Source: an uncultured Draconibacterium sp. (GTDB taxonomy: Bacteria > Bacteroidota > Bacteroidia > Bacteroidales > Prolixibacteraceae). Taken from it: a stretch of DNA of 64,000 bases. Made by a program: the position numbers and the translations under genes. The stretch spans positions 2,149,001-2,213,000 of the forward strand of contig NZ_OY776414.1 of NCBI RefSeq assembly GCF_963675585.1. Reading direction: 5' to 3'. Numbering within the stretch: the stretch's first letter is position 1; each line of letters begins with the position of its first letter. Below, in pieces: positions 7,934 to 63,662 of this stretch. The notes below the pieces were generated by a model. The model ran no database searches. It saw nothing but the letters and a program-made list of their open reading frames with translations, and was not told the DNA's origin.

Positions 7934-7953
7934 GATTGTTCTGTTTTATGGTT

Positions 7954-10365: not shown

Positions 10366-10366
10366 A

Positions 10367-11082: not shown

Positions 11083-11101
11083 AATTTTAATTTTTAATGG
11101 A

Positions 11102-13648: not shown

Positions 13649-13941
13649 TTTTTCCGGCCAAAGCCAAAGTGGTTATGCACCCGGTTTTCTACCATCATTT
13701 TCTGAATTTCTTCGCTGTCGTAGAAGATGACACCGCCAATTTTGGTAAAGGCCAGTGTCCCGTTAATACGCATATTCTGAAGGGTTCCCGGAGAGATTCT
13801 CAGAAGCTTTCTTACTTCGTAAGATTTTAACCATTTTTTGGTGGGTTGCCCGTGGTGGGCAGCAAAGAGTTGTTTGATTTCTTTGAGTAATTCAATTTTG
13901 AATTCCCGAAGATCGTCGGTGGTTACAATTTCTGTTGGCAT
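13645..13941 (-). CDS. Helix-turn-helix (excisionase-type) DNA-binding protein
   Basis: A 98-residue protein. Residues about 37-85 (SYEVRKLLRISPGTLQNMRINGTL through YDSEEIQKMM) form a HTH_17/MerR-like domain of the kind seen in excisionases and in small regulators of Bacteroidota mobile elements. The N-terminus is an amphipathic helix (DLREFKIELLKEIKQLF) likely to dimerise. It heads a three-gene operon; the next gene overlaps it by 4 nt. The duplicated palindrome lies 62-92 bp upstream of its start. It may act in excision, in replication initiation or as a regulator; the sequence does not decide. Confidence 0.8.
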   Translation of the reverse strand: MPTEIVTTDDLREFKIELLKEIKQLFAAHHGQPTKKWLKSYEVRKLLRISPGTLQNMRINGTLAFTKIGGVIFYDSEEIQKMMVENRVHNHFGFGRKK

Positions 13942-18786: not shown

Positions 18787-18798
18787 AGTGATAATTGT

Positions 18799-19965: not shown

Positions 19966-19976
19966 GTTATATTGAA

Positions 19977-21386: not shown

Positions 21387-21390
21387 TATT

Positions 21391-23781: not shown

Positions 23782-23796
23782 TTTTGTAATTTTTAA

Positions 23797-27153: not shown

Positions 27154-27163
27154 CGTTTTCGAT

Positions 27164-28579: not shown

Positions 28580-28590
28580 CTTTTTGAATT

Positions 28591-32039: not shown

Positions 32040-32135
32040 TTAAAATATTCCTCCCATAACAGCAGGCTTTCGTAATTGGGTACATTGCCTGTTTCAGGAT
32101 TCGCGTGTAAATACATCACCGAAGGCTTGTTGTTA

Positions 32136-33596: not shown

Positions 33597-33608
33597 GGTA
33601 TTAAAAAA

Positions 33609-37475: not shown

Positions 37476-37492
37476 AGGTTTCTTTGCTAAAA

Positions 37493-39688: not shown

Positions 39689-39719
39689 ATTTCCCTTTCT
39701 TCAATCAAACCAAGCCGAA

Positions 39720-41594: not shown

Positions 41595-41614
41595 AGGCTT
41601 TAATGTTATTTCGT

Positions 41615-46017: not shown

Positions 46018-46087
46018 TGTAACACGATATTAAATTAGTTGATAAAGTTTATTTTCTCTCCCAACTTTGTAAATGAATACTGAAAAA

Positions 46088-46112
46088 AAAAGGTGGCATT
46101 TCACCACCTTTT
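46088..46112 (-). terminator. Intrinsic terminator inside the PUL
   Basis: Perfect 9-bp stem AAAAGGTGG/CCACCTTTT with a 7-nt loop. On the minus strand it is followed by a T-run (46083-46090). It lies 21 nt after the stop of the small-domain gene and before the enzyme genes, so susCD-side transcripts would partly end here. The motif TAGTTAGATC (minus strand, about 46118-46131) sits between stop and stem. Confidence 0.85.
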
Positions 46113-46133
46113 AAAAAGATCTAACTATACTAA

Positions 46134-46502
46134 CTATTTAAGGATTCTTTCACCTGTAGCTTCGAACATTTCCATCAAACTACCCTTGATTTTATTTTCG
46201 TCAACCTTAGTAAAAGAGAAGTTAATATCATATCCCATTGAATTATAATAAACCGTTATAGTCCCCTCTTTTTCATCAACCTGGGTTAACTTTGCAGGAT
46301 CGGTCCCTTCTGTTCTCATTTCGCCTGTAAGTTTACCTTCTTTCCTTTCGAGGTGCATTACCATGGTTGCATCACCGTTCGGTGTTCCTTTCACTTCTAC
46401 TTTCCAGTCTCCAACAAAATAGTCAGCCGGTTCGTTTGCAATTGCGGCATTTGTAATAAAAAGTAAAACCAAACCTACTAAACTCAATCTGAAATTTTTC
46501 AT
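46134..46502 (-). CDS. Small secreted lipocalin-like protein, same domain as in the GH39-like fusion
   Basis: A 122-residue protein with a signal peptide (1-22) and a single beta-rich domain: FVGDWKVEVKGTPNGD, MVMHLERKEGKLTGEM, TVYYNSMGYDINFSF and KGSLMEMFEATGERI. The same sequence of motifs occupies residues 28-120 of the enzyme at 39720-41594, at about one-third identity by eye. I chose the ATG at 46500-46502 (MKNFRLS) because it begins the signal peptide; the frame is open 20 codons further upstream, into the preceding gene. A glycan- or ligand-binding role is plausible; no catalytic residues are apparent. Confidence 0.75.
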   Translation of the reverse strand: MKNFRLSLVGLVLLFITNAAIANEPADYFVGDWKVEVKGTPNGDATMVMHLERKEGKLTGEMRTEGTDPAKLTQVDEKEGTITVYYNSMGYDINFSFTKVDENKIKGSLMEMFEATGERILK

Positions 46503-46524
46503 CTGTCTATTTTTAAAATTCTTC

Positions 46525-47802
46525 CTAGTTTTGACAATACATGCTTGTGACGTCGAATCCATTGCTCAAAATGGCTATCACGCCTGCGCGTGTAATTTCC
46601 GCCATATCCTTCGTCCAAACGAATGTGAACCTCCCATTGATAGGGCTTCCACTAGCATACTCAGAATAGTCGGCAGTGTTCAAAAATCTCACGGAACCGG
46701 CATCAGCAGAACATACGAGAACTACCGTTGCACCAATTGGAATTTTGGCAGCTTCTTCGGCAGTAGCGGTTAGAGCAGTATAACCACCCATATCGCCGAT
46801 TGCAAAATCTAACTCCGATTGCATGTTTATAGAGTAAAAGCCGCTAACATCAAAGCCATCGCGAAGTATTGCTATTATGCCTCCTGTAGTGGCAATGTCG
46901 GCGATTTCTTGTGTCCATTTGAAAGCAAATTTGCCACCTACCGGGCTACCGCCGGCATATTCAGCATAGGTTGCCGTATTTAAGAAGGAGATTGTACCGG
47001 TATTGCTCGGACATACGAGAACTACCGTTGCACCAATTGGAATTTTGGCAGCCTCTTCGGGAGTAGCAGTAAAAGCGTTATAACCACCCATATCGCCAAC
47101 ATTAAACACTAAGTCTGTTTTTTGATAAGCGCAATACATCGACTCAACATCAAATCCATCGCGTAAGATTGCCATCATTCCTGAGCTAGCTGTAATACCT
47201 GCCATTTCCAGTGTCCATACAAATTTAAATTCACCATTTACTGGACTACCTCCAACATATTCGGCATAAGTTGCCGGATTAAGTAAGGAAACCGTACCAT
47301 CATCACTTGGGCATTTTAACAGAACTGTTGCCCCAATCGGTATTTTTGCCACTTCATCAGAGGAGACAGATAAGATGGTATAACCGCTTGAATTATCAAT
47401 GCTGAAATTCAAATCTATTATTTTCGCACCACCACCAACTGGATTTGCTTCCTGTGTAATGGTAAGAACCTCTTCAACTCCATTTTTTGATAAGGTGATT
47501 TGCCCTACTCGTTCATCAGTGATATCGTTTTCCAGAAACTGAACGTACATGGTTTTACAGTTATCTTCATAACGAACAGATAACCAATCTTTAGCTGATT
47601 TTTCAACATTTGCATAAAGTATTACATTGGATGAAAACTCTATAAGGGTATCTCCCTCAGCATATCCCACGTATATATCTGGATTAATTACATCAATTAT
47701 AGGAATGAGAAACTCTTCTTTATCATCTTTGCACGATGAGAACAGCGCCGATATTCCAAGCACCATTATTAATATTCTATATATATATACTTTGTTTTTC
47801 AT
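46525..47802 (-). CDS. Surface glycan-binding lipoprotein: BACON domain plus three 100-residue repeats
   Basis: A 425-residue lipoprotein (Cys24 in LFSSCKDD). Residues about 35-118 form a BACON domain (TLSKNGVEEVLTITQEAN at its end). Then follow three tandem repeats of exactly 100 residues (about 128-227, 228-327, 328-425), each with KIPIGATV-LL/V-C, YAEYxGGSP and AILRDGFDV. The repeat period is 300 nt in the DNA, and stretches are identical between repeats 2 and 3. It lies directly downstream of susD, the position of SusE/SusF or SGBP genes, and is likely exposed on the cell surface to bind glycan. Confidence 0.82.
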   Translation of the reverse strand: MKNKVYIYRILIMVLGISALFSSCKDDKEEFLIPIIDVINPDIYVGYAEGDTLIEFSSNVILYANVEKSAKDWLSVRYEDNCKTMYVQFLENDITDERVGQITLSKNGVEEVLTITQEANPVGGGAKIIDLNFSIDNSSGYTILSVSSDEVAKIPIGATVLLKCPSDDGTVSLLNPATYAEYVGGSPVNGEFKFVWTLEMAGITASSGMMAILRDGFDVESMYCAYQKTDLVFNVGDMGGYNAFTATPEEAAKIPIGATVVLVCPSNTGTISFLNTATYAEYAGGSPVGGKFAFKWTQEIADIATTGGIIAILRDGFDVSGFYSINMQSELDFAIGDMGGYTALTATAEEAAKIPIGATVVLVCSADAGSVRFLNTADYSEYASGSPINGRFTFVWTKDMAEITRAGVIAILSNGFDVTSMYCQN

Positions 47803-47820
47803 TATTATTTACTTTTCAGG

Positions 47821-49485
47821 TTACCAATTAGGATTTTGAACCAGGTTAGGATTCGAGTTTTTATCTGATGCCGGTATCGGAAAAAGTTCGTGTTGACCTG
47901 ATTTAAAACCTTCGCCTGTTGTTTGGGCGTATTCAATTCTCCAGTTTTCCTTGCTTTGTGGTACGCTGTTCTGGCCATTTACATAACCAAAGAACGTTGG
48001 TTTTACCTTACCAACCGAAGCAAGAACCGATGCTGCATCTCCCCATCGGACAAGATCAATAAACCTGGAGTTTTCATAGTAAAGCTCTGCTCGTCTTTCT
48101 GCTTTAATCCCATATTCTTCATTGTCCATATCAAGAGCCAGAGCATCATCCAAACCAGCTCGCTCACGAACCAAGTTCAAAGCACCCAATCCTGAAAGAG
48201 TTCCTTCTGAACCTCCCATCGCAACAGCCTCGGCATAATTTAAGAGCACCTCGGCATATCTCATAAAGCAGAGGTTGTTATGCAAAAATGTTCCGTGCCA
48301 AAAAGCTTCTCCATAAGTGTTTTCCGTTCGAGGTATCGATTTCATACGCCAATACCCCTCGCCGTCATCAACTCTTGTAGCCACACCTTTTTCCCCGGGG
48401 TAAGTAAATATAGATTCATCCAATAAGTCTTCATAACTCGCTATTGTTCCCCTATAGCGAGTTGACTTTGCGCCACCTGCTGTTATATCATGTGAATCCA
48501 TAAAGTTGCCGAATGATTTTGACGCACATGCTGTTAAACCATATCCTGCTCCACTATAAATTTCTGCAGGATAGTGAATGCCTGAACTCCAGTTATAGAC
48601 AACTTCCAATCGACCAGCTTGTGAGGTTGCATAATTGTTGTCGAAATGAGTTTCAATTTCCCACAAATACTCGTCACAAAAATCACTCGTATAACTATTC
48701 AATGCCGTGAAATCGGGAACAAGGTCGTATAGGTTTGTAGAAATAACTTTTGAGTACAGGACTGACGCGGCCTCGTTGTACTTTTTTTGCCATAAATATG
48801 CCTTGCCCAAATAGGCATATACAGCTTCCCTCGTTATACGGCCTCCTATTTCGCTCTGCCCGCCCAAACCTGATTTGGATGGTAATAATTCAGCCGCTGC
48901 AGCTAACTCGGTTTCGATAAAATCCCACGATTCAGAAGCAGGCGTATTGCCTTCACTGCCATTTAAAATATGATCGGCAAGCGGTGGATTTCCCCATAAT
49001 TGAACCAAATACATCATCATGATGGACCGTATGGCACGCGCTTCTGCAATAACACGTTCCTTTGTTTCTGCCGAGGCAACATTATTGGCAGGCAGGTGTT
49101 CAACAATCATGCTGCAGTGGTATATTATGCTGTAATAATAAGACCACAACATGCTATAAGTAAAAGCTGAAGCCGACTCCGAATACGAAAAATAATCGGA
49201 GAAATCTCCAGACATCTGCTCCATACGATGTCTGACACTGTAATAGCCGGTACCATACAACGAATAATAATAAGTGCTAAATACGTCCCAGTTATTACCT
49301 CTCAGTTTGTGGTAAACTGAAGCAATGAATGCTGTTGCTTCTTCATCATCAGCATTTGTATAGGTATCTTCAACCGACAACACTCCATGTTGTGGAATCA
49401 CCAGGTCATCTTCTACGTTACAGGATAGTAATCCGGTCAACGATAATAAAAAAACAATAATATTTTTTTTCATATTAATTTTCAA
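47821..49485 (-). CDS. susD: SusD/RagB-family glycan-binding lipoprotein
   Basis: A 554-residue outer-membrane lipoprotein with a lipobox at GLLSCNV (Cys22). It shows the SusD layout of TPR helices with long loops: TNADDEEATAFIASVY, ERVIAEARAIRSIMMMYLVQLWGNPPLADHI near the first third, LCFMRYAEVLLNYAEAVAMGG and LNLVRERAGL in the last third, and the closing QHELFPIPASDKNSNPNLVQNPNW. It pairs with the SusC-like channel encoded 8 nt upstream and forms its lid. Its sequence is intact although the partner susC is frameshifted. Confidence 0.93.
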   Translation of the reverse strand: MKINMKKNIIVFLLSLTGLLSCNVEDDLVIPQHGVLSVEDTYTNADDEEATAFIASVYHKLRGNNWDVFSTYYYSLYGTGYYSVRHRMEQMSGDFSDYFSYSESASAFTYSMLWSYYYSIIYHCSMIVEHLPANNVASAETKERVIAEARAIRSIMMMYLVQLWGNPPLADHILNGSEGNTPASESWDFIETELAAAAELLPSKSGLGGQSEIGGRITREAVYAYLGKAYLWQKKYNEAASVLYSKVISTNLYDLVPDFTALNSYTSDFCDEYLWEIETHFDNNYATSQAGRLEVVYNWSSGIHYPAEIYSGAGYGLTACASKSFGNFMDSHDITAGGAKSTRYRGTIASYEDLLDESIFTYPGEKGVATRVDDGEGYWRMKSIPRTENTYGEAFWHGTFLHNNLCFMRYAEVLLNYAEAVAMGGSEGTLSGLGALNLVRERAGLDDALALDMDNEEYGIKAERRAELYYENSRFIDLVRWGDAASVLASVGKVKPTFFGYVNGQNSVPQSKENWRIEYAQTTGEGFKSGQHELFPIPASDKNSNPNLVQNPNW

Positions 49486-49492
49486 TTAAATG

Positions 49493-52400
49493 TTAAAAAC
49501 TTAGGTTGATTCCGAACATAACGGTTTTTGTTGCAGGATATCTACCCGGATCGATTGCCATTGCGTTTGGTAATGCTGAACGTACCTCGGGGTCTTGTCC
49601 GGGATACTTTGTAAATACAAAGAAATCATCTAAGGATACAAAAGCCCGCAACGACATCACATTTATCTTTTGCAATAATTTTTGGGGAATATTATAGCCC
49701 AGTTGGATTTGTTTAATTTTAAAATAAGAAGCATCGAAAACCATCGCATCAGAGGCCAGGTATTTCGCATCTGTTTGATACAGGGCCGATGGTCGGGGTG
49801 CATTGGGGTTATCTGAAGTCCAACGCTCGTCATACAGGAATTTGGGGCGGTTAAATTCCGGCTTATTATCCCAGGAAGCGGCATACATTAACTTCCCGCC
49901 TGAAGCTCCTGACCCTAACACCAGCAAATCGAAATTTTTATAGCTTGCCGTAAATGTTACACCATACGTAAAATCGGGAATTGCACTTCCAATGTCGGTT
50001 TTATCATTTTCTGTAATTGTCCCTGAATTGTCTAAGTCGGCATATATTGGCGCTCCGGTATCACTATCGATGCCCGTTACTTTATATCCTCTGAGATACC
50101 AAACTGAATGACCTTCCTCAAAAAAAGTAACATTACCTGTAGTTCCACCTAATTTTGCACCATCAATTCGTACTCCTTCTCCTTTATATTCAGTCACCTT
50201 ATTTGAAAGAAATGCAATGTTTCCTTTCAGGCCGTACCTTAGGTCTTTGCCAATTTTGTCGTTCCATTCAAGGTCAAATTCAAACCCTTTATTGTTTACA
50301 ACACCAACATTTTGAAAAACGTAATTTGTGCCGGTTGTCAGAGGCGCAACCGACTGAATCAATAACCCATCCGTATTTTTGTCGTAATAATCTAACGACA
50401 TGGACAGTTTACTCTTAAAGAGCCTTACATCAAGACCGGCATCAAACTGCACAGATTCTTCCCATCTTAATTCAGGATTGGCAAGAAACTGGCTGGGATA
50501 CACACCTGTATATAACTGGTTGTTGGTATAGTAATAATTCCCCGTGAGAAGACTGGAGGCATACATATAATTTCCTAAATTGCTAATACTGCCATTTTTA
50601 CCATAGGAAGCTCTTAGTTTAACCTGTGAAAGGATATCTGAATTGATGCCTTTCATAAACTGTTCTTCCGATAGTGTCCAGCCCGCTGAAACTGATGGGA
50701 AATACCCCCACGCGTTATCTTTATCAAGCTTAGAATTATCATAAGCGTCGGCTCTAAAATTGACCTGAATGTTGTACCGGTTATCATAACTCCATCCAAT
50801 CCGGCCAAAATAAGCCAACTGTGAATTTCTTATCTCATTTCCCTGGATTAAATCATTGGCTGATGTGGTCGAATAATCTAAATAAAGGTAATTGGGCAGG
50901 GTCCTCTCCACAGCATCGGTCGATCCGAGTACATTCGAATTGGTGTAGTCAATATATGACGTACCTGCCATAATTGAAAAATCGTTTTTCTTCAGGCTGA
51001 AATTATAATTTACAAAGTTCTCCCACTGAAGATATTCTAAAGCTCGTTGCTCCTCTGAAAGCATTAAAGTTTGTGCATAACTCTCCGTGGCAGCCCAGAA
51101 TGCGGGAGTATAGCTATGAATACGGGTATTATTTAACCTATAACCTAACCTTGAAGTTACGATAAGGTTTTTAACCGGCTCTATATTGGCATAAAAAGTT
51201 CCGTTGACCCTGAACCTTTTATCTGTATTCGTATTTTTATAGATTTCGGCAATAGGGTTGCCAAAATTCGGAACCCAGTACGAAGTTCCGAAATAGTTGC
51301 CTGATTCGGGATCCTTCATGGGTTCATAACCATTATTTAGTGCATTCTGAACAAGAGAAGAAGCCCCAACAATACCATCTTCATATGTAACAGGTGTGAG
51401 TGGGTCAAAAACATACATGGTGCTCAATGCTGCTCCATTTGAAATGCTACCCTCTGAAATTGTTCCCAACTTGACTCTTTCGATTGAGTTTGTGGTACCA
51501 ACTTCCAACCAACTCTTTATTTTGTACGAAGCATTAAATTGCGCCGTTATTCGTTGGTAAGAATCTTTGGACGATTTCACTATCCCGTCATAATCCAAAT
51601 AGCTCAATGACAAGTAGAAAGAACCCTTATCGCTTCCCCCCTTCGACTCCAACTGTATGTACCTGGTTAAATCCGGTCTCCAGTACTTCGTCCTGCCAAT
51701 CAGTGTCTGCAAGCTTGTTATTTACGTATGAGGAGGGGTTATTGTAATAATAGTCGTTTATTAACTGTTCTGAATACCCTGCCTCTTTAATAAATTGAAT
51801 GTACTCGTTTGCATTTAATAAATCGGCCTTGTTTGATGCCTGCACGAGGGAGAATTTGTTGTTATAGAAAAACCTCCCATCAGATTTTTTTCCGATCTTG
51901 GTTGAAATTAATACCACTCCATTACCTGCTTCAGCGCCATAAATTGCAGCAGAAGCAGCATCTTTCAACACCTCCATACTCTCAATACTTTCCGGATCGA
52001 GGTAGTCTATATTATCAACTTTAAGTCCGTCAACGATAAATAATGGGTCTGAATTTCCGTTAGAAGAAAAACCACGTACGCGTAGGGTCGAAGGCGCACC
52101 GGGAGCACTTGATGTTGATATTACTTGTACACCGGCGACCTTACCCTGAAGCGCTGAAACAGCATCAGTTGTTGACCGGTTTGCCAAGTCTTCTGACTTT
52201 ACACTGGAAATTGCCGCCGGTAACATTGCTTTTCTTTTGAACACCGTAACCAATAGCGACTACTTCTTCAAGACCAATGTTTTCCTCTATCATTTGGATG
52301 TTAATCTGACTTTGCCCATCCAGTGTAATTTCCTGAGTTTTCATTCCAATAAATGAGAAGGATAAGATTTGAGCATCTTCCGGAATTTCAAGAGTGTAAT

Positions 52401-52932
52401 TCCCATCAAAATCGGTAGTGATCCCAATAGTTGTTCCTTTAACAATTACAGTAACTCCGGGAAGTGGTTCGCCTTTTGAATCGGTTACTTTTCCTGAAAT
52501 AGTTTTCTTTTGTTCTTGTTCTTTTACCTTTTCAGGCGTACTCGTTTTTATAGAAGAAGGCTCAACTTTCTTTTCTAATATAGATATTTGCCTGTCGCTA
52601 ATTTCATAATAATTTCGAGTACCTTTAAGCAACTGATCTAAAATATCTTCTATTGTTTTATCTTCAACCGAAATATTAACTTCCCTTTTTAAGTCAACTG
52701 ATTTTTCGCTATAGAGAAAAATAAATTCGCTATTTTCTTCGACCTTCTGAAATACTTGTTCAACAGTGATATTCTCAAAACTCATCGTGAATTTAGTCTG
52801 CTGCGAGTACGTTGTGGAAGCTATTGAAGCAACCGACAAGAACAACAGAAAGCTAAGTAATTTCATTTTTAATAATAGTTTAGTTCCAATGGGCTTATTA
52901 CAATTAAGTAGCCCGATCCGTTTTTTTTTCAT
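49493..52932 (-). pseudogene. susC: SusC-like TonB-dependent receptor with STN domain, two 1-nt frameshifts
   Basis: One receptor spread over three frames. Frame A (52932 to about 52215) holds a signal peptide, an STN domain (residues about 45-115, TKFTMSFENITVEQVFQ onwards), a CarboxypepD_reg-like domain and the plug start at GYGVQKKSNVTG. Frame B (to 51636) continues with AISSVKSEDLANRST and the plug. Frame C (to 49493) has GSDKGSFYLSLSYLDYDG and the beta-barrel to the C-terminal GINLSF. The junctions are one extra G in a GGCGGC context (52212-52220) and one extra G in a run of six (51636-51641). Restored length is about 1145 residues, normal for SusC. The STN domain implies signalling to FecR. 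Confidence 0.9.
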
Positions 52933-52978
52933 AGATTTGATTCGTTTTTTGTTAATACAAGTTATTAATACAAACTTC

Positions 52979-53011
52979 GAAAACCGGTGAGGCTCAAATT
53001 CCCCGGTTTTC
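52979..53011 (-). promoter_or_regulatory. Leader hairpin between fecR and susC
   Basis: Perfect 9-bp stem GAAAACCGG/CCGGTTTTC with a 15-nt loop, 47 bp before the susC start codon. No U-run follows on the minus strand, so it is more like a 5' leader hairpin or processing/attenuation site than a simple terminator. Confidence 0.45.
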
Positions 53012-53144
53012 TTCTTATTGATTTAGTTATTTCATAAGCAAAATGACGTTTAGTTAATAATTACTTTTTCTTCCTCAATTTTATATTTGATTTTTGCAAC
53101 TTTTGAAAGCGTAGTCATTACTTCTTCAAAAGATTCTTTAAGAT

Positions 53145-54254
53145 CTAGTTTCCCTGAAATAGGCAATGCATTTCGATTTGTTCACTCTGATAAACGAAAG
53201 TCTTATTATAGTATCGCCCAATTTTCACAAGAACTTGTTCTATATTCTCATTTTTAAACTTATACCAACCGTCTATCCAGGCAATATAATTTTCCACATC
53301 CGATTCAGATACAACTGTCATTTCATTATTTGATGCACGGAAAGTGGCTTTCTGATTTGGTACCATATGAACTTTTTCCTTTATCAATTTACTATCACTC
53401 CATACATTCACACTACCTTCCAGCAATACTATTTCGGATAATTTATCGGAACTATAGGAATTCATATTAAACTTAGTACCAAGCACTTCTACATTCAAGT
53501 TTCTTGAGGAAACAATAAATGGCTGCTGCTCATTTTTGGCAACCTCAAAATATCCTTCACCGTCTAAATATACTTTCCTCCTTTTTCCATTGAATTTTTG
53601 AGGAAAAGCAAACCTTGAACCTGCATTTAACCATACTTTGGTACCATCACTTAATTCTAGTGTAATCTTTTTTCCGAATGGAATGACAAGCTCATTAAGG
53701 GGCATTTCCTTATTGATTGAAGATGATGCAATTTGATTATTATGTACATTTTCGTCAACAAGAACACTCTCATTCTCTAGAACAGTAATATTGGATTGCT
53801 TTTTTTGAACTTCAACTCTTTCACCATTGGCAAGACTTAGGATAGTATTTTCATGCTTCGAGGAATTGCTTATTTCAGAGAAGATATATTCATCTCCGTG
53901 ATTATGCAAATTCAAATAAAGTATACTGCTAATTGACAATATAATTAAAACAGAAGCTGCAATTCTTAGAATACGCTTTAATTGAACCGATTTATTCTCT
54001 TTCCGATCGCTTTTGTTAAAGGCTCTTATTTTTAACCAAAGGTCATGTTTTAAATCGTCATGAAGTTGTACTTTCTTTATCCAAAAAAGAGAGATAAATT
54101 TTTTGGCTTTTAAGATATTTTCTTTTGAATCTTTATGGACATCTAAAAATTCACGCCATTCTTTTTCAGTTGAGATATTTTGAATTATTTCAACAAATTC
54201 ATGATCGTGAATTAATTCTTCAAATGTGTAATCTATGTATTTCTTTTTTGTCAT
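53145..54254 (-). pseudogene. FecR-type anti-sigma factor, C-terminus lost by a 1-nt deletion
   Basis: The frame from MTKKKYIDY (ATG 54252-54254; an earlier ATG at 54275 is less likely) encodes a cytoplasmic anti-sigma part, one transmembrane helix (ILRIAASVLIILSISSILYL) and the FecR domain (TLELSDGTKVWLNAGSRFAFP, then FEVAKNEQQPFIVSSRNLNVEVLGTKFN). It ends early at CLFQGN. One additional A in the GGGAAAC context (53148-53151) would continue as KLDLKESFEEVMTTLSKVAK and stop at 53050-53052, a normal FecR C-terminus. The missing part is what contacts the SusC STN domain. Sequencing error or real mutation cannot be told apart here. Confidence 0.85.
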
Positions 54255-54318
54255 TTTTCGCCTTCTTATAAACAAAAAGGGCTTTCATTGAAGTTTGTGA
54301 CAAAAAAGATGAGAAAAA

Positions 54319-54909
54319 TTATATTTTTTGACGCTTGAGCAGAAACAAAAAGATAAATCCTCTAGAAATCAAATACTTCTTTAAATTTTGAATTGAGCGT
54401 GAAACCAATTGTCTGGCAGTATCATAAGAAATTGACATGATTTCACATATTTGTTGATAATCAAATCCACATGTAAACCTGTAATACAGAACCTCACGCT
54501 GTTTGGCATTCAGCTTCTCCATTCCTCTTTTTAATTCTAATTCTTTTTCTGACGCTTCCTCGTCAGATATTAATTTCTCCTCGATTGAAAAAACTATTTG
54601 AGGATCCTCTGAAAAATCTTTTTCAAGTTCTTGTTGTTTTGTCCTTTTCTTGAGCTGTTTAAATAATCTCCTACGAAATGCCTTAAGTAAGTATATCCTG
54701 ATGTTATCGGTTTCTCCAAGAGTTTGTCTTTTACTGATTAAGTAGAAAAATAAGTCCTGAATAACATCAAGAATCAAATGATCATTTGTGGTAAACTTTT
54801 TGCCATAAAAAAACAGAAAATCAACATTTTGGTGATAAATAAATGAAAGAGCATCCTCTCTTTCATCTATAAATTCCTTCCATATTATTTTATCCGTTTT
54901 GTTTTTCAT
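54319..54909 (-). CDS. ECF-type RNA polymerase sigma factor
   Basis: A 196-residue sigma-70-family protein with region 2 (DALSFIYHQNVDFLFFYGKKF, then ILDVIQDLFFYLISKR) and region 4 (LNAKQREVLYYRFTCGFDYQQICEIMSISYDTARQLVSRSIQNLKKYL). It lacks sigma regions 1 and 3, as ECF factors do. It is followed by the FecR gene 64 nt on and then by the STN-bearing SusC, the usual trans-envelope pathway that induces a PUL when the receptor binds its glycan. Two small hairpins lie in its leader: TAGCT/AGCTA at 54910-54925, next to the start codon, and AAAGATGAA/TTCATCTTT at 54925-54953. Confidence 0.9.
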   Translation of the reverse strand: MKNKTDKIIWKEFIDEREDALSFIYHQNVDFLFFYGKKFTTNDHLILDVIQDLFFYLISKRQTLGETDNIRIYLLKAFRRRLFKQLKKRTKQQELEKDFSEDPQIVFSIEEKLISDEEASEKELELKRGMEKLNAKQREVLYYRFTCGFDYQQICEIMSISYDTARQLVSRSIQNLKKYLISRGFIFLFLLKRQKI

Positions 54910-55207: not shown

Positions 55208-55325
55208 AATAATTATTTTTCATGCTCTACAATAATTAATAATCGTTTTTCTCGCAAAATAATTATTTTTCATGTTATCTTTAAAACCATATTTCATACT
55301 TTCAAAACATGAATAATCATTTTTC
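55208..55325. promoter_or_regulatory. Four direct repeats AATAATYRTTTTTC upstream of and into fic
   Basis: Copies begin at 55208, 55238, 55258 and 55312; the first and third share 17 identical bases (AATAATTATTTTTCATG) 50 bp apart. The last copy overlaps codons 2-6 of fic, and a weaker relative (GTAACCATTTTTCA) follows. Such spaced repeats at the gene start look like operators of an autoregulated gene. Confidence 0.5.
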
Positions 55326-56559
55326 GCAAAAAGTAACCATTTTTCATAGACGACCTCTCCCTGAAATAGGGATGTTGGTAGGATACTCTCTATTGATTCA
55401 AGAAATTGAACGACGTGTAAAAAAAATACTACCTCTTCCAAGACAACTATCCATCGTTACAGAAAAGTATCAGAGATACAACACCGACCAGTGGCAGGTA
55501 TTTACTAATAGGCACAAACCAAACAATGACCTAATAAGTCATATCGTCTTTGCTCTTAAGTATGAAGGCATTGATTTACTAATCCTAAAAACGATATTTC
55601 AGCTGATAGGAGAAAAAGATATCAAGGAAGCTATTCAAAGAGAACCAACCGGTCAATATTCAAGAAGAATCTGGTTCCTTTATGAGTGGTTAGTGGGAAC
55701 AAAACTCAATATACCTGATCTAAAAACCGGCAACTATGTTGAGATTGTGAATCCAACCCTACAATATCCGGGACCAACGATTAATTCAACCCGGCACAGG
55801 GTAAAAAACAACCTGCCTGGCACTCCTGAATTTTGTCCAATGATCAGAAAAAGTGAAAAGCTTGAGAAGTATATTTCTGCTAATATTCAGGATTCCATTT
55901 ACAAAGGATTGAATGGAAGGAATAAGGAACTTATCAGAAGAACAGCAGCATTTCTGCTACTTAAGGATTCTAAAGCTTCATTTGCCATAGAGGGTGAATT
56001 CCCTCCAAATATGCGCGCAAGAAACTGGGGAAAAGCAATTGGAGAAGCAGGCAAAAAAGAGTTAACTTTATCAGAAATAGAACGACTCCAACATGTAGTT
56101 ATTGGGGCTAAGAAATTGAGGCACATGGGATTCAGACAGGAGGAAGGTTTCATAGGAGAACATGATCGTGAAAACTTTTCACCTATTCCTGACCACATTT
56201 CAGCAAAAGCGGAAGATTTAGACTCTTTAATGAATGGTTTACTGAATACAAACAATCTTCTTCAAGAGAGTGAATACGATCCTGTTCTTACAGCGACAAC
56301 CATTGCTTTTGGTTTTGTTTTTATTCACCCTCTTTCTGATGGTAACGGAAGGATACATCGGTATTTAATCCACCATATTTTGAACTGGATGGGATTTATA
56401 AAAAGGGATATGATTTTTCCTGTTTCGGCTGCTATTTTAGACCGAATTAGTGATTACCAGGAAATACTGGAAGATTATTCCTCTCAGAGAATAGATCTAA
56501 TTGAATGGAAGCCTACACCAAGTCATAACATAGAGATACTGAATGATACAATAACGTGA
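55309..56559 (+). pseudogene. Fic-domain protein, 5' part, interrupted by an IS982 element
   Basis: 415 native residues, then two residues and a TGA supplied by the IS end. N-terminal domain (1-180) has the RRPLPEIGMLVGYSLLIQ and PTGQYSRRIWFLYEWL stretches of the long Fic family. The Fic core has HPLSDGNGRIHR at 340-351 (Leu for the usual Phe), so the catalytic His and nucleotide-binding loop are present. SFAIEGE at 224-230 matches the inhibitory [S/T]xxxE[G/N] helix, placing autoinhibition before the Fic motif. Fic proteins transfer AMP to target proteins. Removing the IS restores a 514-residue frame with the fragment at 57592. It is the only plus-strand protein gene in the window. Confidence 0.9.
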
Positions 56560-57584
56560 GTTCGATTTAATGCAAGTTGCAAATTTGGTTATTTTCAATA
56601 ATTTCATCGAGATTTAAAGTAGGCTTTTTAGGAAAGTGCGAATAAGCAATCAGACCTGCTAGCAAGTTTGTAAGAAAGTTCCCAAAGCTTCGGTGTCTTG
56701 TGTGTTCTATCTGGCACATATTTTTTAATTCGTCGTTAACTGTCTCAATCAAAGCCCTTTTTCGCAACAATATTTTATCTTGTGTCAGCATCAACGAGTT
56801 TTTCATGTTTTTGCGGATTTTGGTAATCAGGTGAATACCGTCGATAAAAAGTTCGTCGAACAATGTTTTTGAGATATAACCTTTATCACCAATAAGTTTC
56901 CCGAATATTTTGTCATGGAAATTTTTGTTTTTCAACGGCTCCCTGTCATCAACATTGGCTTGGGTGAAAAGGAAGTCGAGGATTTCTCCTTTGTCGTTGA
57001 TGACGATGTGGAGTTTGAACCCAAAAAACCATCCCATCGAACATTGCCCTTTAGTAGCCAGTCCTTTAAAAGTTTTGTGTTGAAACTCTCGTCTGATATG
57101 GCACACTCTAATGGGGGTGGAATCTATAAACGAAACACCAGTACATTTGCCAAGGCAACATAGTTGCAGGAATACTGCCATGGGCATCAATGATTTCTGC
57201 TGAAGCTCGACAAAACGGTTGTATGATACCGTTTTTGGGAAGTCGGATTGCATGTGTTTTTGCACATAATGCACATAAAAATGCTTCAAACACCTGTAAT
57301 TCTTTAGGTGAAACAACACCATAATGGTAATCACTTCGCTGTCGGACATAACGAATTTACGGTTTCTTCGCTTTTTAGAAGATTCTTCAACCAGGACATG
57401 TCCCTCCTTAACCTTCTCAAATTCTTTGCAAAATTCGTCAATTAAATAGAAAATTTCGGTAATTTTAGAGTTCATATTAAAACAAGGTTTTGTTTGTTAT
57501 ATATTTAATAGTCAGATAATTAAATATAATCAAAACCTTGTTTTTTTTAAAATATTTTATTGCATTTTTATATCGAACTCACGT
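56554..57584 (-). mobile_element. Complete IS982-family insertion sequence
   Basis: 1031 bp with matched terminal inverted repeats, a 7-bp target duplication and a single full-length transposase on the minus strand. Size, terminal AC dinucleotide and transposase type agree with IS982. It is inserted in codon frame of a fic gene and replaces its last 99 codons with a stop. Confidence 0.93.
56567..57475 (-). CDS. IS982-family DDE transposase
   Basis: A 302-residue transposase. Catalytic residues read as Asp118 (SFIDSTPIRVCH), Asp197 (GKLIGDKGYIS) and Glu244 (KRALIETVNDELK), with the conserved GWFFGFKLHIVIND and IEHTRHRSFGNF segments of IS982. The frame is uninterrupted and starts 109 bp inside the right end of the element, so the element may still be active. 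Confidence 0.93.
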   Translation of the reverse strand: MNSKITEIFYLIDEFCKEFEKVKEGHVLVEESSKKRRNRKFVMSDSEVITIMVLFHLKNYRCLKHFYVHYVQKHMQSDFPKTVSYNRFVELQQKSLMPMAVFLQLCCLGKCTGVSFIDSTPIRVCHIRREFQHKTFKGLATKGQCSMGWFFGFKLHIVINDKGEILDFLFTQANVDDREPLKNKNFHDKIFGKLIGDKGYISKTLFDELFIDGIHLITKIRKNMKNSLMLTQDKILLRKRALIETVNDELKNMCQIEHTRHRSFGNFLTNLLAGLIAYSHFPKKPTLNLDEIIENNQICNLH

Positions 57585-57591
57585 TACAATA

Positions 57592-57891
57592 GATTTATAT
57601 CGTTACTACGATTTAACTCTTCAGGCAGAATTTCTTTACGAATGTGTTGTAGACACGATAAACAGGATTATTCCAGAAGAAATTGATTTTCTCGAAAAAT
57701 ACGATCGATTAACCAATGCAATAAATTCGTTCTTAACTCTGCCAGACACAAGGGTTGATTTACTAATCAAATTGTTAAATCAAAATAATGGGAGGCTGTC
57801 CAAAAGGAAAAGACAGAATGACTTTGATGAACTGACTGATGAAGATATTTCTCTGATTGAAGAATATTATGCTGATATTTTTATGAAATAA
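57592..57891 (+). pseudogene. Fic-domain protein, 3' fragment beyond the IS
   Basis: After one copy of the target duplication the fic frame continues without change: DLYRYYDLTLQAEFLYECVV onward for 99 residues to TAA at 57889-57891, ending in IEEYYADIFMK. The region is a helical C-terminal domain with a Lys-rich stretch (SKRKRQNDFDEL). A short open frame that appears to begin inside the IS is only this fragment read through the right end. Confidence 0.9.
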
Positions 57892-58012
57892 TGTATTAAG
57901 TCACACCATATAGAGCTAAATTATATGTAAAAACAGTGCTGGTGAACGATTCGGTTAACACTCAAATATCTCCTGCTACAAACCACTGATTTAGTGCTCA
58001 ATATCCATATCA

Positions 58013-58032
58013 TTCGACTCCCGCCAGCTCCA
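58013..58032 (+). other. tmRNA (ssrA) 3'-end fragment, probable att site
   Basis: TTCGACTCCCGCCAGCTCCA matches the T-loop, 3' T-stem and acceptor strand at the 3' end of bacterial tmRNA. The sequence before it (ATATCA) does not form the 5' T-stem, so only the 3' fragment is present and similarity begins in the T-loop. This is the footprint left at the far end of an element integrated into ssrA by a tyrosine integrase. The orientation places the intact ssrA and the element to the left. No integrase is in the window. Confidence 0.6.
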
Positions 58033-58050
58033 CTTTCAAAATGAGAAACA

Positions 58051-58085
58051 AAAACTCCTGTAAATAAATTATTTACAGGAGTTTT
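58051..58085. terminator. Bidirectional terminator between fic and the GH92 locus
   Basis: Perfect 15-bp stem AAAACTCCTGTAAAT/ATTTACAGGAGTTTT with a 5-nt loop, followed by T-runs on both strands. It separates two convergent transcripts (fic fragment on plus, GH92 on minus). Confidence 0.9.
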
Positions 58086-58110
58086 TTTATTTAATAAACA
58101 AGTTAATCAC

Positions 58111-60354
58111 TTATTTTCCCCACTCTTTATTTGCTTTCGGTCCCATTTCAAAAGTTAGCTTTCCGCCTTTTGCAATGGCTTCGTGTGAAATCCAGGGTAC
58201 ATTAAGTGGCACTCCGTTTAACATGGCCGATTGAATGTATTTATTTTCATCTGAGGCGTTGTAAGCTTCAATTTCAAAAATTATATCGTTGCCCAAATCA
58301 ACAGAAACATTTTCAAACATTGGGCTGCCGATTGAATATTGCTGACTTCCGGGTGTTACAGGATAAAATCCCATGGCTGAAAATACAACAAACGACGACA
58401 TACCTCCGCCATCTTCATCTCCGGGAACTCCCATCAAATCGTTGCGAAACCATTCTTTTAAAAGTTTGCCTATGCGTTTTTGAGTTTTCCATGGCTGACC
58501 TGCGTAATTGTACAAATAAGGAATGTGCAACGATGGCTCATTCGCCATTGTAAACTGACCCACATTGCCCGTTTGATCGGGTAACTGAGCATAAAAACCA
58601 TATTTACTCCGACCAAGAGATTCGGTGAATGTACGATCCAGTTCTTTTACAAAATTCTGACTACCTCCCATTAATTTAATCAGATCCGGTATGTTATGCT
58701 GTACATCCCAGCGATACGTCCAGCCATTATTTTCGCCGTAATATTCTCTGGCCCCCATTCCTCCAGAAAATTTGTAATCAAATGGTTCAATAAAATTCCC
58801 GTCTTTATCCTTGGGATGAAAAAACTTTGTTTCGGCGTTAAACAGGTTTCGGTAGTTGAACGAATTATTTTTGAAAAAATAGGCTTCTTCTTCATTCCCC
58901 AATTCTTCTGCAATCTGCGATAAACACCATTCATCGTACGATGTTCCCAAAGTTACCGCAACAGGCTGGCGTTTTTCTCCCGGATTAACTTCAGGAATAA
59001 TTTCCTTTTCTCCTTCATACAAAGCCGGAATATAACCATGTTGTTTATAAAAGTGATCAAGTTCACCGGCGGGTCTTCCCGACCAGGGAGCTAAGGTTTT
59101 TTCTGTGATTGCACCCTTGCAGGCGATATATGCTTTATTCAAATCAAAATTTCGTAAACCTTTCCGGTAGGCATCAATAACAGAAGCTACACCATGATTC
59201 GAATTCATGCGACGGCTATCTCCAGTAATTTCAGGGAAAGTCGGCCACCAGTTATTTTCCATTTGCTCCGACATAAGAACAAAAGAATTCAAAATATCTT
59301 CTTCCTTTTTTGAATCGATTAAAACACGTAAGGGATGATGCGCACGATATGAATCCCAAATCCAATCGTCGGTATAAAACGGACGACCATGATCTTCGTG
59401 CACTTTGCTATCGAATGCACTGTAATAGCGACCGTTTTCAGAAATACATACAGGACGCTCGAAACAACGATACAAGGATGTATAAAAAACAGTTCGTTCA
59501 TCATTTGTACCACCTTTTATATCAATCTTTCCAAGAGCCTCGTTCCAAATATTACGCCCTATATTCTGAAGTTCGGCAACTGATTTACCTGCAACCTCTC
59601 GCTTCAAATTTTCTTTTGCCTGCACTTCGTCTATAAATGAAATTCCGTAACGCACATTTAAGGCACTGGTTCCTTCGGGGTATTTTAATACCAAACTGGC
59701 GTTCGCTCCTTTTACATTACTTGCTTCACTTAATGTATTATCTGATAGTTGAGATACTTGTACGGGAATTTCTTCGGGAACCATGTACACATAAACTCGT
59801 GTGTTGTTTGCAATATACTGGTAGCCGCTTATTGCATTTCCATCCCATTTTAGTTCTCCGTTTTTAGAACTTAAAATCAAATACGCCGGATCACTTTTTT
59901 CGAATTGAAATTGGTAAGCTGCCGATTGATGCGAAAGCCCAAAATCAACCTGAATTTGTTGCTCATCCAAATAAACAGAATACGAATAAGGAGTAAGTTT
60001 CTCCTGGTCGTACCGATAATTTATTACCGGGCGTAATTCACTTTCGTTCCCCTGAAATGGACTTAATCTGAATGCAGAACTACCACGGTGACTGGTAACC
60101 ACCAAGGGCAATGCATGTAACTCAATATTGGTAAAATCGCCACGTTCGGGATATACACGCAACAAACTGTTGGGTAAATGGATTGTCGGGAAAGTTGGCA
60201 CCAGCAAATGACTAATATTTCCCATGTAAGGATTTACAAAATCAACAGGCTGTCCTGATTTTTCGATGTACTCATTCTTATTTGTGGTACACGAAAACAA
60301 CGATACCATAACAAGGATTAAGAGGTAAATTTTGGTTTTAGGTTTTAGGTTCAT
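58111..60354 (-). CDS. Divergent GH92-family lipoprotein (alpha-mannosidase-like)
   Basis: A 747-residue lipoprotein (Cys22 in LFSCTTN). The N-terminal beta-sandwich begins FVNPYMGNISHLLVPTFPTIHLPN, in place of the Gly-rich start of usual GH92 proteins. The (alpha/alpha)6 barrel has DDWIWDSYRAHHPL, FPEITGDSRRMNSNHG and, in the catalytic segment, GVPGDEDGGGMSSFVVFSAMGFYP. Standard GH92 has NEDxGQMSAWY at this spot; here Asp replaces Asn and Gly-Gly-Gly-Met replaces Cys-Gly-Gln-Met. It may have a changed specificity or reduced activity. A classical GH92 protein lies two genes upstream. Confidence 0.8.
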   Translation of the reverse strand: MNLKPKTKIYLLILVMVSLFSCTTNKNEYIEKSGQPVDFVNPYMGNISHLLVPTFPTIHLPNSLLRVYPERGDFTNIELHALPLVVTSHRGSSAFRLSPFQGNESELRPVINYRYDQEKLTPYSYSVYLDEQQIQVDFGLSHQSAAYQFQFEKSDPAYLILSSKNGELKWDGNAISGYQYIANNTRVYVYMVPEEIPVQVSQLSDNTLSEASNVKGANASLVLKYPEGTSALNVRYGISFIDEVQAKENLKREVAGKSVAELQNIGRNIWNEALGKIDIKGGTNDERTVFYTSLYRCFERPVCISENGRYYSAFDSKVHEDHGRPFYTDDWIWDSYRAHHPLRVLIDSKKEEDILNSFVLMSEQMENNWWPTFPEITGDSRRMNSNHGVASVIDAYRKGLRNFDLNKAYIACKGAITEKTLAPWSGRPAGELDHFYKQHGYIPALYEGEKEIIPEVNPGEKRQPVAVTLGTSYDEWCLSQIAEELGNEEEAYFFKNNSFNYRNLFNAETKFFHPKDKDGNFIEPFDYKFSGGMGAREYYGENNGWTYRWDVQHNIPDLIKLMGGSQNFVKELDRTFTESLGRSKYGFYAQLPDQTGNVGQFTMANEPSLHIPYLYNYAGQPWKTQKRIGKLLKEWFRNDLMGVPGDEDGGGMSSFVVFSAMGFYPVTPGSQQYSIGSPMFENVSVDLGNDIIFEIEAYNASDENKYIQSAMLNGVPLNVPWISHEAIAKGGKLTFEMGPKANKEWGK

Positions 60355-60420
60355 TTTTCAATTAAAATAAAGGGTGATTAAAAAGCTTTACAGTAAGACT
60401 TTTTAGGTACTTCATCGTAT

Positions 60421-61257
60421 CTATTTATTTTGGGTCGATGTTATTACTCCCCGAAAATAACCAATTGATTCTGCAATTCCCATAAAAGGATTGTCCATCT
60501 GACGTTCATGTTCCAACGAAACGACACCGTTATAATTTACCTTTCTCAACATGTTAACCATTGCCGGGAAATCTATTATTCCACGCCCCACTTCAACCGA
60601 ATATCCGGCTCCTGTATTTCCGGTTACATCTTTTAAATGAATATCAAAAATTCGTGAGTGGTACTTCTTTAAGTCTTGCACTGCATCGTTTCCATTGCGG
60701 GTGTCGTGCCCCATGTCAAAACACATTCCAATTCGCGGATCGAGATCATTCACATGATCCCAAACATCTTTGGCATCGGGGTATTTGTTAATATCGGGTC
60801 CATGCAAATGTATCGCCATTTTGAAATTGTATTCCTTAACTTTTTTGTCAACATAAGGTAATAAATCATATTCCGGCACCCCAACAATTAACTTAACGCC
60901 TACTCTTTTTGCATATTCGAAAGCCCGATCCACTTCCACTTTGTTTTTCATATAAATTGGGCCAACAGCATAACCAGTAATTCCATTCTCTTCTAGTTTG
61001 GCATTAAACAATTCAATTTGCTCATCAGTACTGCTTAATGCTAAATGAAAATCTTTTATACATAAATAATGTATATCAGCCTGTTTTAAAGTTTCCAGCG
61101 TTTTGTCGATACCGAACTTAACAAATGTGTAACCGGCCATTCCTAATTTAAATGCTTCGTTTGTTTCAGGTGCCGGTTGTGGATCAGGACGTTTTTCAGC
61201 CTTCAGCGCTGTTCCTACAATAAATACAACAACTAAAAATGCAATTATCTTTTTCAT
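60421..61257 (-). CDS. Secreted sugar isomerase/epimerase-like TIM-barrel protein
   Basis: A 278-residue protein with a signal peptide (1-20, after LKA), then a xylose-isomerase-like (AP endonuclease 2 superfamily) barrel. Metal-binding positions are suggested by MAIHLHGPDIN, GMCFDMGHDTRNG, RIFDIHLKDVTG and GVVSLEHERQMDNP. Exported members of this superfamily are common in Bacteroidota sugar loci, where the substrate is often unknown. It is located between the two GH92 genes and 66 nt upstream of the second one. Confidence 0.83.
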   Translation of the reverse strand: MKKIIAFLVVVFIVGTALKAEKRPDPQPAPETNEAFKLGMAGYTFVKFGIDKTLETLKQADIHYLCIKDFHLALSSTDEQIELFNAKLEENGITGYAVGPIYMKNKVEVDRAFEYAKRVGVKLIVGVPEYDLLPYVDKKVKEYNFKMAIHLHGPDINKYPDAKDVWDHVNDLDPRIGMCFDMGHDTRNGNDAVQDLKKYHSRIFDIHLKDVTGNTGAGYSVEVGRGIIDFPAMVNMLRKVNYNGVVSLEHERQMDNPFMGIAESIGYFRGVITSTQNK

Positions 61258-61275
61258 CTTACAAATTTTTCATGG

Positions 61276-61305
61276 AAGTTGTCAGAAGTAAACTTCTGAC
61301 AACTT
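61276..61305 (-). terminator. Strong hairpin between the GH92 and isomerase genes
   Basis: Perfect 13-bp stem AAGTTGTCAGAAG-TAAA-CTTCTGACAACTT. On the plus strand it is followed by a T-rich run (TTTATTTATTTTTTT); on the minus strand, the coding direction, by TTCCATGAAAAA. It may partly end minus-strand transcripts or protect a processed 3' end. Confidence 0.65.
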
Positions 61306-61397
61306 TATTTATTTTTTTAAGTAATACGGTTGAAAGGAAAATTTACTTATCTGATTTTAAAATATCTCTAATACCAATTTGATAAGCCAAACTATAA

Positions 61398-63662
61398 CTA
61401 CAATGAAGACGTCGGTCTGACATCAGGGGATTTTCCGAAGTTATAATTGGGCGTATTGCCCATAATAAATTTCAAAACCCCGCCAGCCATAATATCATCG
61501 TGTTTTATATATGATTTTGAGTATTCAGATCCATTCAATTCAACCGACTGGATGTAATAATTTTCTTTGGTGTTATTGACAGCCTCTACGGTAAATTTTC
61601 TTCCTTCAGGCAGCTTTATTGTTGCTTTGTCGAATAACGGACTGCCAAAAACATATACTCCGTTTGAAGGATTCACCGGATAAAATCCGAGCGACGACAT
61701 AATATACCAGGCCGACATTTGCCCACAATCTTCATTCCCGATTAAACCGTCCGGCTGATTCGTGTAAAATTCATTCAGTATATAACGTATTTTTTCTGCT
61801 GTTTTCCATTGCTGACCAGCATAGGCATAAAGGTAGGCGATATGATGACACGGTTCATTCCCCTGTGCGTACATACCAATTAATCCGGAAATATCGATAG
61901 AAGCATGTTCTCCAAAATTACCTTCCAGTGTAAACAACGAATCGAGTTTACATGTAAATTTCTCATCACCACCCAAAAGGTCAATCAATCCTTCCGGATC
62001 CTGTGGAACAAGAAACGTATATTGCCAGCCGTTTCCTTCAGAAAAATCGCCATACATATGTACCGATTCCATTGGATCATATGGTGTTACCCATGAGCCA
62101 TCAGATAATCTTGGTCGAACAAAACCAACCGATTTATCAAAATAGCTTTTATACGTTTCCGCTCTATTAAAAAAGTACTTAAAGTCATTTTCTTTACCAA
62201 GGCCTTTTGCCATTTGAGCCACACTTCTGTCATCGAGTAAATTTTCCAATGCAACCGAAGTAGCCTCCCTCGATTTGTCTCGTGGACTGAATCCGTAATC
62301 CATTAGTGGTGCAATTCCACGTTGTGTTTTACAGGTACCGGATGCTTTCAATGCTTCAAAAGCCAATTCTTCATCAAAACCATCGAAACCTTTTTGCCAT
62401 GCATCAACTACTACAGGTGCTGCACTGTACCCCGACATCGCATTGGTTTCGTTGCCCATAAGATGCCATTGAGGCAATTTGCCCTGCTGCTGAAAGATAG
62501 CCAGCATCGAGTTAATAATGTCATTTACTCTTTCAGACTGAACAATGGTTAGCAACTCGTGCTCTGTGCGGTATGTATCCCATAGCGAAAAAACAGAATA
62601 GTTCTCAAACCCGGGATTGGTATAGACTTCTTTATCGGTTCCCCTGTAACTTCCATCTGCATCGTTGAATAAAACAGGTGCAATAAAGGAATGAAACATT
62701 GCAGTATAAAAGACCTGCTTCAAAACCGGATCATTGGTTTCAATTTCAATTTTTGATAATTCTTTGTTCCATTTCTCCTCTGCCTGACCGGCTATCTTAT
62801 CGAAATCCCATTCAGGAGCTTCAATATCGATATTTGCTAATGCATTTACGGAACTCACAGGCGAAATTCCTACTTTCAAAATTACTTCCTGAGGATTGCC
62901 GGCAAATGAAATTACACCTTTCACGGCATGCGCCATAAACTCTTCTTCACCAACTAAAGTGTCGTTATCGTACAATTCCAGCTTCTCAATTTCGCGATTA
63001 CTTTTTAGGGTAAACCAAATCCGTTGGTCTTTTGCCCAGCCTTTCGAAAAGCGATACCCTTCAATGGTATTGGCATCAACTTGTTTCAGGAAAGTTTCAT
63101 ACGACTTGTCTCCAATCCCTTCTTTTAAATCAATTATTACATGATTATCATTTTTTCCCGGGAAAGTATACTTATGAACTCCTACTCTTTCGGTTGCTGT
63201 TAGCTCTGCTTTAACCTTGTACTTATCCAGCAGTACCGAATAATAACCCGGTTTTACCAATTCGTTATCGTGACTAAAGTAGGATGCGTATGCATTGTTA
63301 ATATTTTTTTGTTCTCCTCGTTTTATATTGACTTTCCCGTTTATGGGCATCAGAAGAATATCACCTAAGTCGGAACCACCTGTTCCACTTAAATGCGTGT
63401 GCGAAAAACCGGTTATAATACTGTCAGAATAATGATATCCCGAACACCAATCCCATCCTTTAAAAATATTGTTTGGTCCAAGTTGTACTGCCCCAAACGG
63501 CACACTTGCGCCGACAAAAACATGCCCATGTCCTCCGGATCCAATGATCGGATTGACATGTGTTGCCATATTTGACGTTTTGTTATTTGTATGAGAGCAC
63601 ATACAAAATAAGGGCAGAAAGAATAACATTGTTATGTATTCTCTTAATTTTCTTTTTTTCAT
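61398..63662 (-). CDS. GH92 alpha-mannosidase
   Basis: A 754-residue secreted protein (lipobox-like FCMCSHT at about 20-26). It has the classical GH92 signatures: HVNPIIGSGGHGHVFVGASV at the start, HTHLSGTGGSDLGDI, YRTEHELLTIV, and in the catalytic region GLIGNEDCGQMSAWYIMSSLG with the catalytic Glu. GH92 enzymes are calcium-dependent exo-alpha-mannosidases on N-glycans or yeast mannan. Length agrees with the family. It is transcribed from the SusD side on the right. Confidence 0.93.
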   Translation of the reverse strand: MKKRKLREYITMLFFLPLFCMCSHTNNKTSNMATHVNPIIGSGGHGHVFVGASVPFGAVQLGPNNIFKGWDWCSGYHYSDSIITGFSHTHLSGTGGSDLGDILLMPINGKVNIKRGEQKNINNAYASYFSHDNELVKPGYYSVLLDKYKVKAELTATERVGVHKYTFPGKNDNHVIIDLKEGIGDKSYETFLKQVDANTIEGYRFSKGWAKDQRIWFTLKSNREIEKLELYDNDTLVGEEEFMAHAVKGVISFAGNPQEVILKVGISPVSSVNALANIDIEAPEWDFDKIAGQAEEKWNKELSKIEIETNDPVLKQVFYTAMFHSFIAPVLFNDADGSYRGTDKEVYTNPGFENYSVFSLWDTYRTEHELLTIVQSERVNDIINSMLAIFQQQGKLPQWHLMGNETNAMSGYSAAPVVVDAWQKGFDGFDEELAFEALKASGTCKTQRGIAPLMDYGFSPRDKSREATSVALENLLDDRSVAQMAKGLGKENDFKYFFNRAETYKSYFDKSVGFVRPRLSDGSWVTPYDPMESVHMYGDFSEGNGWQYTFLVPQDPEGLIDLLGGDEKFTCKLDSLFTLEGNFGEHASIDISGLIGMYAQGNEPCHHIAYLYAYAGQQWKTAEKIRYILNEFYTNQPDGLIGNEDCGQMSAWYIMSSLGFYPVNPSNGVYVFGSPLFDKATIKLPEGRKFTVEAVNNTKENYYIQSVELNGSEYSKSYIKHDDIMAGGVLKFIMGNTPNYNFGKSPDVRPTSSL

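Follow-up and report, generated by a model that had tools for sequence, protein, structure and literature searches.

A 22-bp sequence in the genome of an uncultured Draconibacterium is very probably the right attachment site of a single integrative and conjugative element (ICE). The element measures 72,333 bp, would have entered the tmRNA gene ssrA at its 3' end by means of its own tyrosine recombinase, and has a whole glycan-degradation locus (PUL) within its borders. We analysed a window of 64,000 bp (C4:2149001-2213000) from this genome, which comprises 6.03 Mb in 4 contigs. A sequence-only reading of the window had taken 20 bp near its right end for a remnant of ssrA left at an island boundary. 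We find both att sites, the integrase gene, the gene content between the sites, ends common to another element and an uninterrupted site in a congener.

Attachment sites at ssrA

Positions 58013-58032 of the window (+ strand) read TTCGACTCCCGCCAGCTCCA. As the sequence-only reading had claimed, these 20 bp equal an ssrA 3' end; they are an exact repeat of the end of the genome's only intact ssrA (C4:2134306-2134702; tag peptide GENNYALAA by ARAGORN), which is also the sole tmRNA in the genome above the Rfam cut-off. The orientation of the fragment had pointed to an element on its left, with an intact ssrA ending in the same 20 bp to be sought beyond the left edge of the window, and this is where the gene lies. 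A genome-wide search at up to 2 mismatches returned two copies of the 20-mer, at C4:2134680 and C4:2207013 (window 58013), both exact and both on the + strand; the reversed control pattern had zero genome matches at the same tolerance. Identity between the two copies extends 2 bases rightward, giving 22 bp, and 0 bases leftward. From base composition, such a 22-mer is expected 2e-7 times on both strands of the genome, and 100 dinucleotide shuffles of the window gave no match to the 20-mer at up to 3 mismatches. ARAGORN found no whole tRNA or tmRNA within the window. No tmRNA occurs in the 17 kb to the right either, so that an arrangement named in advance as contrary to an element on the left, an intact ssrA just right of the site, does not exist here. 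The result is the layout of an island at an ssrA 3' end, with a direct repeat at both borders and intact ssrA at one. The two att copies bound 72,333 bp, and the features at the borders are as follows (window coordinates unless a contig is given):

C4:2134680-2134701, attL, inside ssrA, 14.3 kb left of the window
57918..58012, no strand assigned, inner arm at the right end of the element, with conserved counterparts in Draconibacterium orientale and G020
58013..58034, + strand, attR, at the right border of the 72.3-kb element, repeating 22 bp from the ssrA 3' end
58050..58086, + strand, intrinsic-terminator-like hairpin of 17 pairs, right of attR on the host side
58111..63662, - strand, right host flank with GH92, sugar isomerase-like and GH92 genes, of which the isomerase-like gene has a homologue adjoining ssrA in G003

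A second terminator-like hairpin is located on the element side of attL, behind ssrA, and in the relative G007 a hairpin resembling 58050..58086 lies 3' of ssrA. The hairpin at 58050..58086 is likely to be the original host terminator of ssrA, severed from the gene by the element. From the placing of the two hairpins, one within the element and one in host DNA, a rebuilding of ssrA on the left is most likely. In this scheme, whose polarity of strand exchange we infer, attP of the element would recombine with a 22-bp core, formed by the final 20 bp that match ssrA and two further bases. Since the element contributes an identical core and a new terminator hairpin, ssrA would be rebuilt intact on the left, and the original core and terminator would stay behind on the right.

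A relative without the island provides the comparison that the sequence-only reading had proposed. galU lies left of ssrA in at least seven other genomes (G003, G007, G008, G014, G019, G020 and G026), and in the congener G003, which has no insertion, galU-ssrA is followed by an isomerase-like gene whose near (3') end lies ~400 bp on. This gene stands on the same strand as, and is 71% identical to, the second gene right of attR in the window genome. We infer the exact pre-insertion state, because G003 belongs to a different species and does not have the GH92 gene with which the right flank of the window genome begins. Two other candidates were rejected. G007 has the similar terminator behind ssrA but lacks the flank's genes, which leaves G003 as the sole uninterrupted site used. 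In G033 a GH92 gene (77%) lies to the right of ssrA at a distance of 13 kb, but other genes fill ~12 kb of that gap, in which the only core matches are two chance-like ones (5 and 6 substitutions); this genome is loosely consistent with a pre-insertion state at most.

Gene content of the element

A tyrosine integrase gene had been expected left of the window and is found directly behind ssrA. It starts ~250 bp right of ssrA in the same orientation and encodes a protein of 407 aa with Phage_integrase (E 3e-19), Arm-DNA-bind_5 and SAM_5 domains. Further right, still outside the window, ardC (L010:2194-5782) is split by an IS21-type pair. Next comes an operon for HAD-like, PRTase-CE, ORC-CDC6-like, CARF6 and PfkB proteins (C4:2140357-2147398; L010:6357-13398), a candidate CARF-based conflict or defence system; its CARF6 protein has a PADLOC match at E 8e-112, and three of the five proteins have no PADLOC family. 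Relaxase and MobC genes follow this operon, and the remainder of the element lies in the window:

669..11464, - strand, CTnDOT-type conjugation module with coupling protein, TraN (DUF4138), TraM, TraK, TraJ, TraG, TraE (DUF4134) and small unassigned genes
12484..13941, - strand, AAA ATPase, an unassigned 171-aa gene and an HTH_17 protein, DNA 92.9% identical in the G009 sister ICE
14703..15524, - strand, rteC (Pfam RteC, E 3e-58, 197 bits, above cut-off)
16450..54909, - strand, PUL (38 kb), between rteC and fic
55309..57891, + strand, fic, next to attR at the right end, interrupted by an insertion sequence
56553..57585, - strand, insertion sequence in fic with ends AACGTGAGTTCGAT (set by eye) and a DDE transposase ORF at 56567-57475

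The family search of the transfer module covered part of its small ORFs. Pfam Relaxase (68.8 bits) and T4SS-DNA_transf (76 bits) both score above cut-off, as do TraM, DUF4138 and DUF4134 in Pfam and TraG (647 bits) and TraK (239 bits) in NCBIfam. Below the NCBIfam cut-offs are the relaxase as MobB (128 vs 400 bits), MobC, the coupling protein (812 vs 900) and TraJ (150 vs 290), and RteC has no NCBIfam family at 0.001. The sole candidate for an excision gene is that of the HTH_17 protein, a possible excisionase.

The PUL encodes GH3, two GH43, a GH78-type, two GH106, two GH2 and a GH79-like enzyme, a carboxylesterase and two Sde182-like proteins. It also holds SusD, SusC, FecR and an ECF sigma factor, that is, a SusC/SusD pair and a regulator in addition to clustered CAZymes. 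SusC occupies three reading frames and the adjoining FecR gene is apparently frameshifted (window 49493-53200), so that the cargo may be decaying or the assembly may be locally poor; either real decay or assembly error would account for the frameshifts. Both fic and ardC are likewise interrupted, in their case by insertion sequences. The GC content of the PUL is 41.1%, against 37.9-38.7% in the flanks, a mild difference that we set aside as evidence.

The suggestion that the PUL travels with an ICE appears to hold in terms of position, since the PUL sits within the delimited element. We propose that it is cargo in a slot bounded by rteC on one side and the fic-attR end on the other, and that it would move along if the element excises and transfers. 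Alternatively, homologous recombination, or recombination driven by an IS, may have brought it later into an element that was at ssrA beforehand. Insertion sequences lie near both element ends, and one genome cannot tell whether the PUL was acquired before or after the ICE inserted; we nevertheless consider this history unlikely, and whatever the history, the content between the two att sites now belongs to the element. The best match of a PUL GH106 protein among the 60 relatives is only 67%. A comparison with 344 sampled genomes of the order, self included, scored no more than two candidates per genome (E up to 1e-200) and gave a best non-self match of 64%, to a paralogue in the same genome, so that no local source of the PUL is visible. 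In the reading that we favour, the PUL would have arrived with the element, and excision may still work.

A related element at the same site in D. orientale

D. orientale FH5T (G006) carries a 28.4-kb element at the same ssrA site (NZ_CP007451.1:4235930-4264387), with the same att core at ssrA and again 28.4 kb away. At the ssrA-integrase end the two elements are 92.8% identical across 1.9 kb, ssrA itself making up ~0.4 kb of this, and their integrase proteins are 98% identical. They also match in the relaxase/MobC region at 78% across 1.4 kb, in a non-coding stretch at 84%, in 198 bp of fic at 72% and at the right end at 85.6%, where the 118 aligned positions include attR. The likeness of the two elements thus covers the integrase, the att core, relaxase/MobC, fic adjoining attR and the right arm. 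Because the D. orientale element matches both ends of the 72-kb element, these ends belong to one element type. The two differ in size and cargo: the D. orientale element carries genes whose products resemble esterases, aldo-keto reductases and xanthine-dehydrogenase-type proteins (translations read by eye). Three tra probes gave no match to it, and no SusC/SusD was seen in its ORF lists, read by eye; it reads as mobilisable rather than conjugative.

Searching 61 genomes (60 relatives and the window genome) at up to 2 mismatches located the core in 45, and two copies on one contig solely in the window genome (G000), D. orientale (G006) and G020. The G020 copies, behind ssrA, enclose a 2-kb island with fic and an overlapping 124-aa ORF (G020:C5:1596617-1598614; L137), which is either a deletion remnant or a minimal passenger. 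As in the window genome, fic adjoins attR in both G006 and G020.

Integrases at least 87% alike occur in five places, four of them directly behind ssrA: in the window genome, in D. orientale, in the Prolixibacteraceae MAG G014 (JAFGDX010000519.1) and in Sunxiuqinia indica, where the match begins at residue 32. The fifth (G034, 98%) was ruled out as a second user of the att site, since it lies 86 kb from ssrA in a displaced, truncated copy of the D. orientale-type element. This copy (G034:C1:6067455-6079638; L133, L181) is piecewise 95.6-99.6% identical to the D. orientale-type element, and its left border retains just the last six bases of the 22-bp core. Less alike integrases are also found behind ssrA, three at 41-47% (G026, G038 and G042) and a partial one at 32% (G043). 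In other genera, two integrases of 44-45% are found behind tRNA-Pro (23 of 52 loci were checked for a neighbouring RNA gene), as is one of 46% in the window genome. With close integrases behind ssrA in four of five places and distant ones mixed, the ssrA target is a trait of the close clade, and targets vary in the wider family.

Sister elements and their cargo

TraG proteins at least 74% identical are encoded in 17 places in 10 of the 61 genomes (self included), and 16 of the 17 neighbourhoods were read (G005:C16, at a contig edge, was left out). Testing 11 integrase-linked RNA genes yielded six elements delimited by direct repeats of 14-24 bp, at these targets:

ssrA, the element described here
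tRNA-Pro, in the same genome
tRNA-Lys, in G009
tRNA-Lys, in G029
tRNA-Arg, in G031
tRNA-Leu, in G034

All six contain SusC and SusD genes. The second ICE of the window genome (C4:2713942-2776790) spans 62.8 kb between 23-bp repeats at tRNA-Pro and has its own SusC/SusD. The sister ICE in G009 has core genes 89.9% identical over 12.7 kb and SusC/SusD right after rteC; it is bounded by direct repeats at tRNA-Lys, and a second tRNA-Lys gene lies just outside its attR. In the G029 element the repeat measures only 14 bp and the integrase is split in two. At the other 5 of the 11 RNA genes (tRNA-Pro in G024, tRNA-Pro and tRNA-Lys in G031, tRNA-Arg in G010 and tRNA-Leu in G030), the available sequence contains no repeat of at least 14 bp.

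In G010 and at tRNA-Pro in G031, SusC/SusD lie between integrase and rteC, and this gene order places them inside the element; the G031 case is less sure because the tRNA-side integrase has an internal stop codon and other integrase genes lie between. Four more places have SusC/SusD on the rteC side with no second border found (G030, G024:C5, G006:3773k and G034:3695k). At four TraG places no SusC/SusD pair was found (G005:C29, G024:C3, G031:5233k and G034:5033k). G005:C29 (L183-L185, L300) has a TraG of 97% followed by RND efflux-like and nitrate reductase-like operons, not a PUL (translations read by eye).

These genomes are PUL-rich, with 51 SusD genes in the window genome and 27-77 in six relatives. 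The six delimited elements (464 kb together) contain 10 SusD genes, 8 with PF07980 among the matches listed and 2 from tblastn, against 3.8 expected (Poisson P 0.006), an apparent enrichment that is suggestive and no more.

The single-element reading can be set against two tandem elements at ssrA, an ICE from integrase to rteC and an island with the PUL and fic, from between which the middle att has been lost. Island sites can accumulate several elements, and G020 has a fic island of 2 kb between two att copies. We hold this arrangement to be very improbable here. The element contains no internal att-like copy on either strand at up to 5 mismatches, the D. orientale element has the same integrase on the left and fic with the same right arm on the right within a single 28.4 kb, and the sister ICEs carry SusC/SusD on the same side of rteC. 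The proposal that one element spans all of window positions 1-58 kb is thus supported by the lack of an internal att and by the match of the D. orientale ends to both of its own. Chance similarity or a duplicated ssrA fragment without any element, which the recurrence of short T-loop-like stretches in tRNA genes could suggest, is refuted by 22 identical bases in the right orientation, the integrase at the other copy and the same arrangement in D. orientale, and its probability is practically nil.

Discussion

The element described here resembles CTnDOT-type elements in its TraE, TraG, TraJ, TraK, TraM and TraN genes, its MobB/MobC-like genes, RteC and an Arm-DNA-bind_5/SAM_5 integrase. It differs from them in being specific for the ssrA 3' end and in having a PUL as cargo. 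The CTnDOT target, in contrast, is reportedly short and loosely specific.

PMC6907783 reports 47 PULs with SusC and SusD on gut mobile elements, and loci for porphyran, agarose and carrageenan on ICEs or mobilisable plasmids are cited in PMC8845570. These cases are alike in having a PUL inside a mobile element, in some instances a conjugative one (PMC6907783, PMC8845570). They differ in the bacterial group and in that the site here is ssrA; the terms 'tmRNA' and 'ssrA' are absent from the main text of PMC6907783. Genes for tmRNA are described as common island sites in PMC11915505 and PMC3146451. The Dehalococcoides islands for vinyl chloride respiration are likewise at ssrA according to PMC3146451, a likeness by description only, with unrelated host and cargo. 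Searches of one open-access library yielded no paper that deals with ICEs in Prolixibacteraceae or Draconibacterium; the one Draconibacterium paper that came up there concerns type IX secretion (PMC7323717). Hence PUL-bearing ICEs and ssrA islands are each already known, and it is well supported that this element joins both kinds.

A guess based on 20 bases has become a delimited element. It adds to the gut examples a concrete case in which a conjugative element, equipped with a transfer module and an intact integrase gene, contains a whole glycan-degradation locus. D. orientale has the same chassis with other cargo, and in four other species delimited elements combine a related transfer module with a different integrase and PUL genes. 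Whether such bacteria exchange PULs can therefore be tested directly. Tentatively, and with our judgement inclining slightly against it, a CTnDOT-type ICE family of the genus, to which D. orientale belongs, may keep an rteC-side slot of the transfer module that repeatedly receives whole PULs, with integrase and target (ssrA, tRNA-Pro, -Lys, -Arg or -Leu) swapped independently and PULs exchanged between species as ICE cassettes. In the Draconibacterium group, polysaccharide clusters may be regular cargo of conjugative elements.
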